From: a bacterium
Lineage (GTDB): Bacteria > JAHJDO01
Reading direction: 5' to 3'
DNA: 14,973 bases
Assembly: GCA_030611945.1 (NCBI GenBank)
Contig: JAUWOV010000044.1
Span: 1-14,973 of the forward strand
Shown here: piece by piece, positions 5,768 through 14,896 of the stretch
Numbering within the stretch: the first letter of the stretch is position 1
Layout of the letters: every line of letters begins with the position of its first letter
The notes under the pieces: generated by a model
The model's database searches: none
Seen by the model: only the letters and a program-made list of their open reading frames with translations
What the model was told of the DNA's origin: nothing
Position numbers and translations under genes: made by a program

Positions 5768-6646
5768 TTATCTATTTCCTCCAATCTTCCAAACGCCTTT
5801 TTCAAGAAAAGCTTCTATGGTTTGGCGATTTGCTTTATTTATCAAATTAGAGTGTGATACTTTATTCTTTTTCGCGTATTCAGCAAGCGTCATGATGTGC
5901 GCGCCTTCCAGATACGCAAGTCTCTTGTGATAACTGTTCGTAAGCGCTTTGCCGACTATTTCTTCCATGATTTCAGCAACGCCTTTTTCGTCAAATTCCT
6001 TAAATGCTTCGTAATATAATTTTCTATCAATGAATTTAATATTCACAGGCACAAAACCTTCTCGTATAAGCAGATAATTATTTATCACTCTTCCGATACG
6101 GCCATTACCATCAACAAACGGGTGGGTGTGTTCAAAAGCAAGATGCAGCAGAGCAATGCGTTTTATAATATTTTCGTGACTGTTTGCGTTATAACCTGCA
6201 AGCATTTTATCCAATCTTTCTGCTACTTCTTTTGGATCCGGTGCTATGTGGTTCGCAATCCTGACCCACTCACCATGCTTACGAAATCTGCCGGCTATAT
6301 CATCCCGGATATTTGCTATAAGCATTTTGTGAAGCGACAGAATAATCTCAAGAGTAAGCTCTTGTTCTTTGGCTTTTGCATTGATATAAAAAACTACCCG
6401 CGCGAGATTTTTTGCTTCAAAAATTTCTCTTTCAGTGATGTATCTGTCTAAATTTATTTGCAAAAGGATTTTCTCTGTTTCTTCAAGAGTGAGAGTGCTG
6501 TTCTCAATGGCATTGGAGTTATACACTTGCTCGGAAACCTCCGCTTCACTCAATAATTTCAGAAGCGATTGTTTACCGACAGACGCAATATAATACCGCT
6601 CTCTCAAGCGATTGATTGAATTGAAAACATGCAATATTTTTGCCAT
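5768..6646 (-). CDS. Fic-domain protein (probable AMP-transferase) with N-terminal autoinhibitory motif
   Basis: Protein of 292 aa with the complete Fic active site HPFVDGNGRIGR (residues 175-186; His175 catalytic, Asp179 metal ligand, GNGR anion hole). Such enzymes transfer AMP or another nucleotide moiety to a hydroxyl of a target protein. The N-terminus carries SNAIEN (44-49), matching the [S/T]xxxE[G/N] inhibitory helix, so this is a class II, self-inhibited Fic. The 'AGRFRKHGEWVRI' flap (118-130) is also typical. A C-terminal segment (about 250-290, LAEYAKKNKVSHSNLINKA) looks like a small helix-turn-helix domain. Its target is unknown. A strong promoter ends just before the start, predicting a leaderless mRNA. 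Placement between lpxB and msbA is unusual, but the msbA ribosome-binding site lies in its 3' end, so it is a settled operon member. Confidence 0.93.
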   Translation of the reverse strand: MAKILHVFNSINRLRERYYIASVGKQSLLKLLSEAEVSEQVYNSNAIENSTLTLEETEKILLQINLDRYITEREIFEAKNLARVVFYINAKAKEQELTLEIILSLHKMLIANIRDDIAGRFRKHGEWVRIANHIAPDPKEVAERLDKMLAGYNANSHENIIKRIALLHLAFEHTHPFVDGNGRIGRVINNYLLIREGFVPVNIKFIDRKLYYEAFKEFDEKGVAEIMEEIVGKALTNSYHKRLAYLEGAHIMTLAEYAKKNKVSHSNLINKANRQTIEAFLEKGVWKIGGNR

Positions 6647-9464: not shown

Positions 9465-9492
9465 TTGACAAAGAATTTTTATATGTTATATT
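9465..9492 (+). promoter_or_regulatory. Sigma-70-type promoter of the sugar operon
   Basis: TTGACA (9465-9470), a 16-base spacer and TATATT (9487-9492) give a strong vegetative promoter reading toward the LacI-type gene. Start of transcription is expected around 9499, leaving a leader of about 32 bases. No other clear promoter is seen before the glycosidase gene, so this one probably serves the whole operon. Confidence 0.7.
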
Positions 9493-9498
9493 TAGGTT

Positions 9499-9506
9499 AC
9501 TCGAGT
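9499..9506. promoter_or_regulatory. Candidate LacI-family operator (ACTCGAGT)
   Basis: ACTCGAGT is an 8-bp perfect palindrome with the central CpG common in LacI/GalR-family operators. It lies at the predicted transcription start of the operon, where a bound repressor would block the polymerase. It is shorter than most such operators, so this is a suggestion of autoregulation only. Confidence 0.4.
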
Positions 9507-9530: not shown

Positions 9531-10535
9531 ATGAAAAGAGTTTCAATGAAGAATATTGCCTCACTGTCCGGAGTGTCAAGGACAGTTGTTTCCAGAGTTT
9601 TGAATAACAAAGCTGATGAGTATAGAATAAGTAAAGACACAAAAAATAAAATTCTCAAACTTGCCAAAAAGCTTAAATATCAGCCAAATCAATTAGCGCT
9701 TGCATTGAAACTTGGCAGAACAAACACTATCGGGCTTATAGTATCGGACATAACCAATCCTTTTTTCTCAACCATTGCCAAGTGTATAGAGGATTTTCTC
9801 AACAGGGCAAATTATAGCCTAATAATATGCAATTCTAATGAAAAATGTGAAAAAGAAACAGAATATATCTCATTATTAAAACAAAAAAATGTAGATGGTA
9901 TAATTATTTCTCCAACACAAAACAGTTCCGATGGTATTAAGGAATTATTGCATGAAAGATATCCTTTTGTTCTTATAGATAGGTGTTTTCAAAAGATGGA
10001 TACAAATTGTGTTACGGTAGATAATAGAAAAGGCGCATATGATTTAACAAAATATCTCATAGATAGAGGACATTGTTTTGTTGCGCATATTGCAGGAATA
10101 AAAAAAACATATACAGCCAGTGAAAGATTGAAAGGATATAAACAGGCTCTAAAGGAAAATGGATTGAAGTATAGAAAAAAACTTGTTAAGCACACAGATT
10201 TTTCAATAGAAGAAGGATATAAAGCTGCAAGAGATTTATTATCTGGAAAAACAGAAAAAGCAACAGCTATATTTTGCGCTAACAATAAACTTACCATTGG
10301 GGCGTTGCAGGCGGTTTCGAATATGAAATTAAAAATCCCTGATGATATAGAAATTGTAGGGTTTGATGAGATTAATTTGTATAGATTATTTACTTTTCCT
10401 TTTGCTTTTATTCAACAACCTGCAGAAGAAATGGGAAAAAGGGCATCAGAGATATTACTTGAGCAATTAAAGAACAAAGATTCACATAAATTTAAGCAAA
10501 CAATACTCAAGACAAAATTGATTTGTATAGAATAA
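9531..10535 (+). CDS. LacI/GalR-family transcriptional regulator
   Basis: Regulator of 334 aa, the standard length of the family. Residues 1-60 form the DNA-binding head: MKRVSMKNIASLSGVSRTVV with a helix-turn-helix at about 6-25, VSRVLNNK as third helix, and the hinge at about 50-62 before TNTIGLIVSDITNPFF. The rest is a periplasmic-binding-protein-like effector domain, ending with the family pattern 'IVGFDEINLYRLF...QQPAEEMGKRASEILL'. The ATG at 9531 places the head at the usual distance from the N-terminus. It is first in an operon with the glycosidase (36-bp gap), kinase and isomerase, so it most likely senses the sugar or oligosaccharide they process and represses its own promoter. The effector is unknown. 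Confidence 0.95.
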   Translation: MKRVSMKNIASLSGVSRTVVSRVLNNKADEYRISKDTKNKILKLAKKLKYQPNQLALALKLGRTNTIGLIVSDITNPFFSTIAKCIEDFLNRANYSLIICNSNEKCEKETEYISLLKQKNVDGIIISPTQNSSDGIKELLHERYPFVLIDRCFQKMDTNCVTVDNRKGAYDLTKYLIDRGHCFVAHIAGIKKTYTASERLKGYKQALKENGLKYRKKLVKHTDFSIEEGYKAARDLLSGKTEKATAIFCANNKLTIGALQAVSNMKLKIPDDIEIVGFDEINLYRLFTFPFAFIQQPAEEMGKRASEILLEQLKNKDSHKFKQTILKTKLICIE

Positions 10536-10571
10536 ATAAAAATTGGATATTAACAAAAGGAGAAATATAAA

Positions 10572-11702
10572 ATGTTAAATCTAACAAAAATCAAAAAGGC
10601 AAAAACATTGCGTTGTTCATCATGGGATACAAGCGGTCGTAATTCCGACTCGTGGAAGATTGAAGGAGGCGAAACACGGGTTCTGGCTGATATCAAAGGG
10701 ACGGGCTGCATAACACATATCTGGATGACGCAGGGCAGCGGCTACCGGGATGTGCTTATTAAAATGTATTGGGATGGCGAAAAAAATCCGAGTGTGCTAT
10801 GTCCGTTGGGCGATTTTTTCGGGCTGGGTAATGAAATTGTAAACTCCTACCAGTCTCTATTGTTTACCGCTTCAACTAAGCAAAACAACAAGTTTAATCA
10901 GGGCTGCGCTTTGAACTGCTACTGCCCGATGCCGTTTAATAAATCGGCGCGAATCGAATTAGTGAATGAAGGGGCAAAAGATCACGGTCAGTATTTCTAT
11001 ATTGATTATGAGCTATATAATGAACCGAATAGCGATGATACAGGATATTTTCACGCTCAATTTAGGCGTGAAAATCCATGTAACGGCTGGGGGCATGAGA
11101 TATCTGTAAATGTAGCTGAAGCCAATATTGTCAATAAAGAAAGATTAGCATGGGAAAATAATTATGTGATTCTTGAAGCAAAAGGTGCCGGACATTATAT
11201 TGGTTGCAACATCAGTGTGACCAATTTTCAAGGAACATGGTGGGGGGAGGGAGACGATATGATATGGGTAGATGGCTATAAATGGCCGCCTGATTTGCAT
11301 GGAACAGGCAGTGAGGATTTTTTTAATCAGGCTTGGGGCATGCAGCCCAATGCCTTTATGCATAACGGCAGTTCCATTCACGAGAATAATACCAACGGCT
11401 ATCAGACATCATATGTTCATCATCTGGAGAATCCTGTCCGTTTTCAAAAAGAGATTAAGGTAACCATTGAACACGGTCACGGCAATCATCTTGCCAATGA
11501 ATGGTCTTCTGTTGCTTACTGGTATCAGAAAGAACCTCATCAGAAGTTTGGGATAGTTCCTGTTGATAAGCGCAAGCCTGTCCAACGTACTATGGATGGC
11601 AGATGGATCATTGATAAAAAGCCTCAAACATCGCAGATACCTGTGAAACTTAATGCTGAAATGAAAAAAATGAAGGCGCAGTGGAAAAAGAAACAGAAAT
11701 AG
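10572..11702 (+). CDS. DUF2961 / GH172-family glycoside hydrolase, cytoplasmic
   Basis: Protein of 376 aa with the DUF2961 core now classed as GH172. Characterised GH172 members act on alpha-D-fructofuranosyl or alpha-D-arabinofuranosyl linkages. Typical features are the N-terminal 'SSWDTSGRNSDSW.I..GET..LADIKGTGCITHIWM' (residues 16-52), PLGDFFGLG (78-86), 'FQGTWWGEGDDMIWVDG' (219-235) and HGTGSEDFFNQAWG (243-256). Glu226 and Glu248 fall in the two conserved acidic motifs and are the likely catalytic pair, by analogy with the two essential glutamates of the family. There is no signal peptide, so it should act inside the cell on imported oligosaccharides. A strong ribosome-binding site (AAAGGAG) precedes the ATG. 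The AraB-like kinase and FucI-like isomerase downstream favour an arabinofuranosidase role, which is inference. Confidence 0.88.
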   Translation: MLNLTKIKKAKTLRCSSWDTSGRNSDSWKIEGGETRVLADIKGTGCITHIWMTQGSGYRDVLIKMYWDGEKNPSVLCPLGDFFGLGNEIVNSYQSLLFTASTKQNNKFNQGCALNCYCPMPFNKSARIELVNEGAKDHGQYFYIDYELYNEPNSDDTGYFHAQFRRENPCNGWGHEISVNVAEANIVNKERLAWENNYVILEAKGAGHYIGCNISVTNFQGTWWGEGDDMIWVDGYKWPPDLHGTGSEDFFNQAWGMQPNAFMHNGSSIHENNTNGYQTSYVHHLENPVRFQKEIKVTIEHGHGNHLANEWSSVAYWYQKEPHQKFGIVPVDKRKPVQRTMDGRWIIDKKPQTSQIPVKLNAEMKKMKAQWKKKQK

Positions 11703-11736
11703 TTTCAATAATGCGCTGCAAAATGGAGATTACATC

Positions 11737-13380
11737 ATGGGTAAGTATGCCTTGGGTCTGGATTTTGGCACAGAATCGGTACGGGCATTGGCTGTGGACT
11801 GTAAGACGGGAGATGAATGTTCATTGGCTGTTGAAGTATATAACCACGGTGTAATAACTAAAAATCTGCCCGGCTTGAATGAACCATTGCCTCCTGACTT
11901 TGCGCTTCAGCATCCGCAGGATTACATTGACTCTTCTTATGCTGCTATTTCAGAAATCCTTAAAGATGTACCTGCAAAAGAGATCATAGGTATAGGTGTA
12001 GATTTCACGGCCTGCACAATGCTGCCTGTTAAAAACGACGGAACACCTCTCATGCAAATTGATAAATTTCGCTCTAATCCTCATGCATGGGTTAAATTAT
12101 GGAAACATCATGCTGCACAACCAGAGGCGGACAAAATAAATCAGGTGGCTCTAGAGAGAAAGGAACCATTCCTTAAATATTATAGCGGTATTATTTCCAG
12201 TGAGTGGATGCTTCCAAAATGCTGGGAGATCGCTAATAAGGCGACTGAGGTATACAAAGCCACTGATATTATGATAGATGCAGGAGACTGGCTTGTTTAT
12301 CAAATCACAGGAAAATTCTGTCGTAATGCCTGTGCTGCCGGGTACAAAGGTTTGTGGAACGCAGAAACTGGTTTTCCAGCTAAAGATTTTTTGAATGCTT
12401 TGGATCCTAAAATAAAAGATATGGATGAAAAATGGTTGAAAAATATTGTTTATCCGGGTCAGCGTGTTGGTGTTGTCTCAGAAGCATTTGCTACTCTAAG
12501 CGGTTTAATGCAAGGAATTCCTGTCTCTGCTGCGACCATTGATGCTCATAGCGGTGTTCCCGGAATGGGAGTATTCAGCGAAGGGTCTATATGCATCATA
12601 ATGGGTACTTCATCCTGTCATATGCTGCTTTCTAAGAAACTTCGTTTCTTCAATGGATATGCCGGCGTTGTTAAAGACGGCATCATCCCCAGATTCTATG
12701 GCTATGAATCCGGACAATCGGCCGTGGGGGATATCTTCGCGTGGTTTGCTAAAAATTTTATGAAGTCAAAAGGTGATACTTTCAGCGAAATATCCCAAAA
12801 AGCGTCAGTATTAAAACCAGGAGGGTCTGGCATTGTTGCACTGGACTGGATGAACGGCAATCGAAGTATTCTGATGAATTCACATTTAACGGGAATGATT
12901 ATCGGGTTAACATTGAATTCCCGTCCAGAAGAAGTCTATCGGGCATTAATCGAAGCAACGGCCTTTGGAACAAGAATTATTCTTGATGCTTATCAGAAGG
13001 TTGGAATTCCAGTGAAAGAAATAATAGTTTGTGGAGGATTGGTAAAAAATCCTTTAATCATTCAAACATATGCTGACGTGACAGGGATTCCGTTTAAAGT
13101 GGCAGCGTCAAACCAGGCTGTCGCATTAGGTGCTGCTATGTTCGGAGCAATTGCAGCAGGCCCGGAAAATGGAGGGTTCAATTCGTTTGAAAAAGCAATT
13201 CCGGTAATGACAAAACCTCCTTTAAAAACCTACTTACCTGGTAGCAATGCAAAGACTGTATATGACCAGCTTTTTGAAATATATCTGGAATGTCACGCTT
13301 ACTTCGGACGCAAGCATTCTGAAATAATGAAGCGTCTTAAACAACTAAAATTAAACACAAGAGAAGGAACGCATGAATAA
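11737..13380 (+). CDS. AraB-like FGGY pentulose kinase (ribulokinase type)
   Basis: Cytosolic sugar kinase of 547 aa, close to AraB ribulokinases (about 550-566) and longer than most xylulokinases. Visible family features are the N-terminal phosphate-binding GLDFGTESVRALAVD (residues 7-21), GIGVDFTACT (85-94), 'YYSGIISSEWMLPK' (148-161), the catalytic Asp269 in TIDAHSG, MGTSSCHM (289-296), GYESGQSAVGDIFAWF (322-337) and VCGGLVKNP (431-439) of the adenosine site, then 'AVALGAAMFGAIAAG'. AraB-type enzymes phosphorylate ribulose; E. coli AraB accepts both D- and L-ribulose. The sequence alone does not settle which isomer is used here. GGAG precedes the ATG, 34 bp follow the glycosidase stop, and the next gene overlaps by 8 bp, so it is a coupled operon with the isomerase. 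Confidence 0.9.
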   Translation: MGKYALGLDFGTESVRALAVDCKTGDECSLAVEVYNHGVITKNLPGLNEPLPPDFALQHPQDYIDSSYAAISEILKDVPAKEIIGIGVDFTACTMLPVKNDGTPLMQIDKFRSNPHAWVKLWKHHAAQPEADKINQVALERKEPFLKYYSGIISSEWMLPKCWEIANKATEVYKATDIMIDAGDWLVYQITGKFCRNACAAGYKGLWNAETGFPAKDFLNALDPKIKDMDEKWLKNIVYPGQRVGVVSEAFATLSGLMQGIPVSAATIDAHSGVPGMGVFSEGSICIIMGTSSCHMLLSKKLRFFNGYAGVVKDGIIPRFYGYESGQSAVGDIFAWFAKNFMKSKGDTFSEISQKASVLKPGGSGIVALDWMNGNRSILMNSHLTGMIIGLTLNSRPEEVYRALIEATAFGTRIILDAYQKVGIPVKEIIVCGGLVKNPLIIQTYADVTGIPFKVAASNQAVALGAAMFGAIAAGPENGGFNSFEKAIPVMTKPPLKTYLPGSNAKTVYDQLFEIYLECHAYFGRKHSEIMKRLKQLKLNTREGTHE

Positions 13381-14848
13381 AATAGCCGATATCTACATAC
13401 CTTTAGACAGCCGCGCTGAGCCTAACAAACAAGTTTGGCCTATTGCAACAAAACAACTAAGAGAGTTTATAAAAGTTATTAAGAGATGTGGCTGGGAAGC
13501 CAATGTGCTAAATTCTGATAAACCTGTTGCAAGTGTAGACGAGGGAATGCAGGTTATCAAAAAAGCAAAAGGCGAAAGGTTTATAAATTTCATGGCCGGC
13601 TGGGCTTATCCTGATTTTTCTGTAAGCCCAATGTGGCAGTTATTACCTAATGTACCAAAATTGATGATAGGAAGTACCCTGCCTGATTTTCCCGGCGCTG
13701 TTGGGCTTTTTGCCGCAGCGTCTGGCATGGCTCATATGGGTATTGAGACCAGCCGCTTATTCATAGAAAAATTTAAAAATCCTGACAGCTATGCAAATGC
13801 CATTAACACCTTTTTGAGCAAAGAAAACTATGAGCCGCTATATCCCGAGCCAATCGAGGTTGTTGTCAATGATTCCCACAGAGAAAAAGCAAAGAAAGCC
13901 ATCAAACAGCTAAAAGGGTCCATTTATGGGGTAGTGGGACCTCGTTCTATGCAGATGTGGAATAAGATTTCTGAGGCAGATTTCTTGAAATATTTTGGAA
14001 TCTCGCGGGAAGGATTTGATGGATTAAGGGTTTTAAAAATGGCTGAGAAGATTTCCGATAGTAAAGCGGAAAAAGCATTAAACTTTTTACTTGGAAAAGG
14101 CATGGATATTCGTCTTGGAAGCGATCCTGCTAAAATGCTGACAAAAGACATGGTGGTTTTTCAGATGAAAGTTTATTTTGCTCTACTTGAACTTAAAAAG
14201 CAATTCGGTTTGGATTTTTTAGGTGTTCAGGACCAGCTTGACTGGATAGAATATAACCCAGCAACCGATTTAACGCTGGGAATTTTAAACAATAAACTGA
14301 GACCTGAATCGGATGGCGAAACTGTAGTAGCGGCTACAGAAGCCGATGATGGAGCAGCTATAACCATGTATGTTTTAAAACTATTGAGCGGCGGAGAACC
14401 TGTAGGCTTTAGTGACCTGCGTTACTGGGATTCAAAGCGCGGACTATACTGGTTTGTTAATTCAGGTGCTTTAGCTCCTTATTTTGCCTACGGTTGCCAC
14501 GATTCTCTCAAAGGATCATGGTCTGAGCGGCAAACCTATATGTACTTTAAGCAAGGCGGAGGCACATGCTCTGTGGTGGTGCGCATTCCCGGGATAATAA
14601 CCTGGGCTCGTTTTTCGTATCGGAACCATCAGATGTATCTCTGTGCAGGTCGCGGTATTACAGATGTCCCTACAGAAAAACAGTGGCGAGAGCGTTCAAA
14701 CAGATGCAATCCTGAATGGCCGCACTGGTATTTAAAGCTCTGTAGTCAAATTGAGTGGAAAATAAATTCCAATCATCCTATGACTGTGATGGGAGATTAT
14801 CTTGCCGATTTGAAAGCACTCGCTGAGCAGTTAAGCCCAAAAACCTAG
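13373..14848 (+). CDS. L-fucose/D-arabinose isomerase-family protein (FucI-like)
   Basis: Aldose-ketose isomerase of the FucI/AraA superfamily, 491 aa (E. coli FucI has 591; a shorter FucI-like branch of about 470-500 is common). The C-terminal part carries the manganese-site residues expected from FucI: Glu323 in ATEADDGA, Asp348 in FSDLRYW and His468 in NHPMTVMGDYLADL. The spacing and contexts resemble the Glu, Asp and His ligands of FucI. FucI-type enzymes convert L-fucose to L-fuculose and D-arabinose to D-ribulose. Coupling by an 8-bp overlap to an AraB-like kinase points to a pentose, and no aldolase is present. The start ATG at 13373 follows AAGGA. The TAG stop lies inside the conserved edge of the mobile element that follows. 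Confidence 0.87.
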   Translation: MNKIADIYIPLDSRAEPNKQVWPIATKQLREFIKVIKRCGWEANVLNSDKPVASVDEGMQVIKKAKGERFINFMAGWAYPDFSVSPMWQLLPNVPKLMIGSTLPDFPGAVGLFAAASGMAHMGIETSRLFIEKFKNPDSYANAINTFLSKENYEPLYPEPIEVVVNDSHREKAKKAIKQLKGSIYGVVGPRSMQMWNKISEADFLKYFGISREGFDGLRVLKMAEKISDSKAEKALNFLLGKGMDIRLGSDPAKMLTKDMVVFQMKVYFALLELKKQFGLDFLGVQDQLDWIEYNPATDLTLGILNNKLRPESDGETVVAATEADDGAAITMYVLKLLSGGEPVGFSDLRYWDSKRGLYWFVNSGALAPYFAYGCHDSLKGSWSERQTYMYFKQGGGTCSVVVRIPGIITWARFSYRNHQMYLCAGRGITDVPTEKQWRERSNRCNPEWPHWYLKLCSQIEWKINSNHPMTVMGDYLADLKALAEQLSPKT

Positions 14849-14867: not shown

Positions 14868-14896
14868 TAGAAAGAAGCAGGCTCTGCTGGTATAAT
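14868..14896 (+). promoter_or_regulatory. Promoter of the mobile-element transposase
   Basis: TAGAAA (14868-14873), a 17-base spacer and a perfect TATAAT (14891-14896). The same boxes and spacing are kept in the decayed copy (minus strand, 2412-2440) while neighbouring bases differ, which supports function. Confidence 0.6.

Follow-up and report, generated by a model that had tools for sequence, protein, structure and literature searches.

The four-gene cassette at positions 9531–14848 of the window (the whole stretch of DNA analysed here, a contig of 14,973 nucleotides from an uncultured bacterium, JAUWOV010000044.1) is probably, with a likelihood of roughly 0.6, a LacI-controlled catabolic operon for D-arabinose freed from small α-D-arabinofuranosides. 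After import of these glycosides, the GH172 hydrolase would act in the cytoplasm, removing terminal α-D-arabinofuranosyl residues. The FucI-like isomerase (iso1) would then convert the D-arabinose to D-ribulose, and the AraB-type kinase would phosphorylate the latter to D-ribulose 5-phosphate, which could enter the pentose phosphate pathway with no need for AraD or an aldolase. At a little under even odds, iso1 and its AraB partner may also represent a previously undescribed D-arabinose isomerase/D-ribulokinase lineage in several phyla, mostly uncultured, that provides an epimerase-free D-arabinose route alongside an independent L-arabinose operon, which has an alternative isomerase of its own.

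All four genes are on the forward strand, divergent from metG, and their open reading frames and family models confirm the tightly spaced, co-directional arrangement of the original prediction. The first encodes a LacI/RbsR-type repressor (9531–10535; PF00356 and PF00532, with an RbsR-type model as the best NCBIfam match, under the equivalog cut-offs). It is followed by a GH172 (DUF2961) glycoside hydrolase, predicted to be an α-D-arabinofuranosidase (10572–11702), an AraB-type ribulokinase of an iso1-linked AraB clade (11737–13380), assigned with NCBIfam ribulokinase models and a tree, and iso1, a predicted D-arabinose isomerase (13373–14848), assigned with Pfam domains and a structure model. 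The genes are separated by 36 bp and 34 bp and then overlap by 8 bp, based on the reading-frame coordinates. Upstream of lacI, a σ70-like promoter (TTGACA-16-TATATT; 9465–9492, forward strand) matches the consensus at 11 of 12 positions and has a TG before the second hexamer. Just past it, an inverted-repeat scan identified a short palindrome, ACTCGAGT (9499–9506, no strand), which may be a LacI-type operator core. Another promoter-like site (14868–14896, forward strand; 10 of 12 consensus matches, also with a TG before the second hexamer) lies ahead of a gene truncated at the contig edge, which suggests that the isomerase gene is the last of the operon. These promoter calls use the consensus only, and the region holds 25 such sites versus 17.5 expected. 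The contig stops 125 bp past the isomerase gene, so the gene downstream is unseen. Neither an epimerase nor an aldolase is encoded within the four-gene cassette; the absence originally claimed holds at this level, but not for the genome, which encodes AraD-like and FucA-like proteins on other contigs (C48 and C52, respectively).

The source genome is 1.66 Mb in size and is estimated to be ~91% complete. Its phylum is represented by five genomes, all of one genus. The congeners that were searched lack both the isomerase and GH172 and, thus, the cassette looks accessory. The GC content is ~0.41 from base 11000 onward, versus ~0.36 in the left part of the window. A comparison with viral contigs produced a single match, short and weak, and no Rfam families were found in the window. 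A Fic/DOC domain protein is encoded on the reverse strand (5768–6646), between an MsbA-like ABC transporter and LpxB.

The GH172 protein matches DUF2961 with 262 bits, compared to a cut-off of 27. Among solved structures, αFFase1 of Bifidobacterium dentium (7V1V) is the closest with 396 bits, followed by 4KQ7 (207), 8AH3 of Dysgonomonas gadei (178) and the D-arabinofuranosidase ExoMA1 (108). The catalytic Glu270 and Glu291 (αFFase1 numbering) are conserved as E226 and E248, as are all the tested −1 subsite residues (W267, E270, E291, D292, W298 and Y187). The window protein also retains Gly299, which lets αFFase1 take fructofuranosides, in place of the asparagine that marks ExoMA1 as specific for α-D-Araf and blocks fructofuranosides. 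Both the proximity to αFFase1 and Gly299 count against the D-arabinose reading. They would suit an enzyme acting on α-D-fructofuranosides, with the kinase and isomerase serving another sugar under the same regulator, and GH172 relatives at 49–50% identity are found close to GH32 genes. Nevertheless, we regard this arrangement as very improbable: the cassette has neither a fructokinase nor a GH32 gene, a GH172 relative at 51% identity sits with FucI and a pentulose kinase, and the window protein lacks the ~37-residue insert near the N-terminus of αFFase1 and, with it, the +1 subsite residue Glu85 on which inulobiose activity depends. A lysine aligns at αFFase1 position 147, so that only one residue of the pair expected for an αFFase1-type difructose dianhydride I synthase/hydrolase (Glu85 and Lys147) is present.

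The functional consequence of this loss can be judged from αFFase1 itself, whose E85 mutants keep about full activity on pNP-α-D-Araf and lose activity on inulobiose, with 98% and 0.5% left, respectively, in E85A (PMC8605356). From these data and the missing insert, we predict that the window GH172 acts on α-D-Araf ends, perhaps also on α-D-Fruf, and not on difructose. The original prediction had named placement with a fructan-specific clade as contrary evidence. The nearest enzyme does act on fructans, but it cleaves α-D-arabinofuranosides too (PMC8605356), and its difructose-specific loop is the part lost here. The insert was also considered as a tracker of gene context and rejected, as the GH172 of Chimaeribacter, which has a FucI context, retains it (few cases were seen). 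No signal peptide was recognized by eye in the window GH172, whereas several relatives have one.

The isomerase matches three Pfam domains of L-fucose isomerase slightly above cut-off and falls far below the FucI equivalog models (34 vs 775 bits and 32 vs 850 bits). A sequence search of the PDB with iso1 identified no relative. Its structure was modeled with a mean pLDDT of 76.7 from an alignment of genome and window rows only. The model matches L-fucose isomerases and the Bacillus pallidus D-arabinose isomerase with Z-scores of 27.7–29.9, compared to 22.2–25.4, over ~300 residues, for L-arabinose isomerases, and Foldseek ranks the matches in the same order, with the FucI type above the L-arabinose isomerases. 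The fold and the Glu/Asp/His catalytic residues are common to iso1, the B. pallidus enzyme (Z 28.6) and E. coli L-fucose isomerase (Z 29.8), although iso1 is ~100 residues shorter than these proteins and 17–21% identical to them. E323, D348 and H468 of iso1 correspond to E338, D362 and H529 in the alignment with a classic FucI; in E. coli FucI, catalysis relies on E337, D361 and H528. The modeled structure, thus, supports a FucI-type active site with the catalytic residues kept. D-ribose, whose isomerization would also yield D-ribulose, is a possible alternative substrate. L-fucose is an unlikely one, given that a distinct L-fucose cluster is located on contig C52 of the same genome (L075:221-9991), containing a rhamnulokinase-like kinase, a GH29 fucosidase, its own 571-residue FucI-like isomerase and a FucA-like aldolase.

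The iso1 clade includes 30 other loci at 67–78% identity, whose titles are mostly Aminicenantes, with Acidobacteriota, Planctomycetota, Elusimicrobia, Verrucomicrobiota and others also represented. Many of these genes sit behind an RbsA/C/B-like sugar ABC transporter. We are not aware of an activity measurement on any member of the clade, which we count against the D-arabinose reading, and a limited check of open-access papers found no description of the clade.

The FGGY kinase of the window scores above both ribulokinase cut-offs (644 vs 428 bits for PRK04123, 595.5 vs 583 for TIGR01234), and these L-ribulokinase models score far above the pentulose kinase model TIGR01315. It matches the AraB ribulokinase of Bacillus halodurans (3QDK) over its full length with 576 bits, and the AraB residue A96 is common to both. 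The A96 residue and the model scores count against the D-arabinose reading. They would fit a pathway in which AraB phosphorylates the L-ribulose produced by the isomerase, and L-arabinose breakdown is completed by the AraD-like protein encoded elsewhere in the genome; no match to AraA (PF02610) was found in this genome, and AraA is missing from nearly all iso1/AraB genomes examined. However, the AraD-like protein is under the AraD model cut-offs, with its gene among those of a V-type ATPase, and the isomerase model is closer to FucI than to AraA. NagB-like, PfkB and amidohydrolase genes are found in the same stretch of contig C48 (L074:5058-8773). An AraB-type kinase could also serve the D-arabinose route, as E. 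coli AraB phosphorylates D-ribulose, which was shown in EHEC (PMC12307932).

The AraB relatives in iso1 genomes fall into two groups, AraB1 (54–76% identical to the window kinase) and AraB2 (38–43%). AraB1 adjoins iso1 in seven genomes (G007, G012, G015, G018, G022, G030 and G031), while a neighboring kinase is missing at most iso1 loci, which counts against the D-arabinose reading. AraB2 usually adjoins AraD, after which comes another isomerase, iso2 (PF02952 only). In the AraB tree, eight iso1-linked kinases, with records from several phyla, form one clade (95/100), apart from a second clade of AraA/AraD-linked kinases (97/95) and a third containing AraB2; 3QDK itself is outside this tree. 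An araD gene conserved next to the cassette in relatives, which had been proposed as contrary evidence, was not found: AraD is absent beside the iso1-linked kinases and sits with the other kinase and isomerase. Six of the seven AraB1-iso1 genomes have no recognizable AraD, although incompleteness of the metagenome-assembled genomes could conceal some of these genes, and the seventh (G007) has it in a separate AraB2-AraD-iso2 operon. G012, G015 and G018 lack class II aldolases entirely; G022 and G031 possess some, none of which is AraD, and the sole hit in G030 is long and weak. These comparative facts favor the D-arabinose route over the L-arabinose route, to which we assign a low probability, since the L-arabinose genes of related genomes appear to be in their own operon. 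The FucI-superfamily protein iso2, as at L086:6589-8070, occurs in such operons in genomes lacking AraA, with a further case next to an AraD in Subdoligranulum (L131); it is likely an alternative L-arabinose isomerase.

In one class of 142 genomes, 24 have iso1, 60 have iso2 and 19 have both. As 19 of the 24 iso1 genomes also carry iso2, iso1 is not simply a missing L-arabinose isomerase. Among genomes with a complete listing of GH172 places, 6 of 19 have GH172 at most 10 kb away from iso1, compared to 0.5 expected (Poisson p 1.5e-5, a rough value because the genomes are related), and 0 of 15 have it that close to iso2. Two further linked cases (G045 and G074) are outside this count. GH172 is also the commonest Pfam family near iso1, accounting for 6 of 101 proteins within ~5 kb (raw count). 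The presence or absence of GH172 over the 142 genomes was dropped as evidence for a link, as iso2 correlates with GH172 equally strongly; only physical linkage is, therefore, informative. At one locus (L115:4161-9350), genes for a DUF6786 protein, an MFS transporter and an M19 peptidase-like piece separate the AraB1-iso1 pair from GH172, and M19 peptidases are seen repeatedly in the vicinity of iso1 (5 of 101 neighbors).

The main rival of the D-arabinose reading is D-xylose, for which iso1 would be a FucI-family alternative to the standard xylose isomerase and the kinase would act on D-xylulose, a route that is likewise epimerase-free. A precedent is XylA-II of Clostridium acetobutylicum (CAC2610), annotated as fucose-isomerase-related and proven to be a xylose isomerase, which works with XylB under XylR (PMC2873477). 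It resembles the present system in pairing a FucI-superfamily pentose isomerase with an FGGY kinase, although its likeness to iso1 is by description only. No standard XylA above the model cut-off was found in the 29 genomes searched, most of which have iso1; this result, together with the known FucI-family xylose isomerases, counts against D-arabinose. Furthermore, the best model for an iso1-linked ATPase is a xylose transporter, well under cut-off, and a xylulokinase is found near one iso1 locus (L014). On the other hand, xylanase and xylosidase families are missing from the 25 commonest iso1 neighbors, which include GH172, and the window operon itself contains GH172. The characterized GH172 members in the cited papers act on α-D-Araf or α-D-Fruf substrates and none releases xylose (PMC8605356, PMC10509167, PMC10115798). 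We prefer D-arabinose on the basis of this linkage of iso1 to GH172, and consider D-xylose unlikely.

Sets of GH172, isomerase and kinase are already known, so the idea of such a route is not new. The D-arabinan loci of Microbacterium arabinogalactanolyticum and D. gadei, published in 2023, contain a GH172 exo-α-D-arabinofuranosidase and a (fucose) isomerase, to which the Microbacterium locus adds a putative D-arabinose kinase (PMC10509167, PMC10115798). Both loci have GH183 endo-arabinanases, and that of Microbacterium also has an ABC transporter, in contrast to the window cassette, which has neither; their isomerases and kinase can be likened to iso1 and AraB1 by description only. GH183 (DUF4185, PF13810) has no match in the ~91% complete genome, and D-arabinan as the substrate is thus not supported. 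A self-contained route is not supported either, as no transporter gene is present in the cassette and the permease of the relatives' transporter was not found in a search of the window's genome. The lack of a transporter counts against the D-arabinose reading as well. The parts of the original prediction that are backed by context and the model are the epimerase-free route for D-arabinose and the FucI-type site.

Judged by sequence comparison, what is new here is that isomerase and kinase branches for which we found no description recur together in several bacterial phyla. D-arabinose is present in few known glycans, and genes consuming it in sediment bacteria and other uncultured ones would imply unrecognized sources of D-arabinofuranosides. 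If the D-arabinose reading is correct, an isomerase clade that is weakly named as fucose isomerase in databases gains a testable function.

A parallel set is located on a plasmid of Chimaeribacter arupi (L009), where a GH172 (51% identical), LacI, an FGGY kinase and FucI are close together. Unlike the window cassette, it includes a GPH symporter, its FucI is of the classic form with 592 residues, and its kinase belongs to the TIGR01315 pentulose kinase family. A Klebsiella plasmid (L008:5292-13503) encodes an FGGY kinase and a distant isomerase relative (24%), together with a dehydratase and an aldolase-type lyase.
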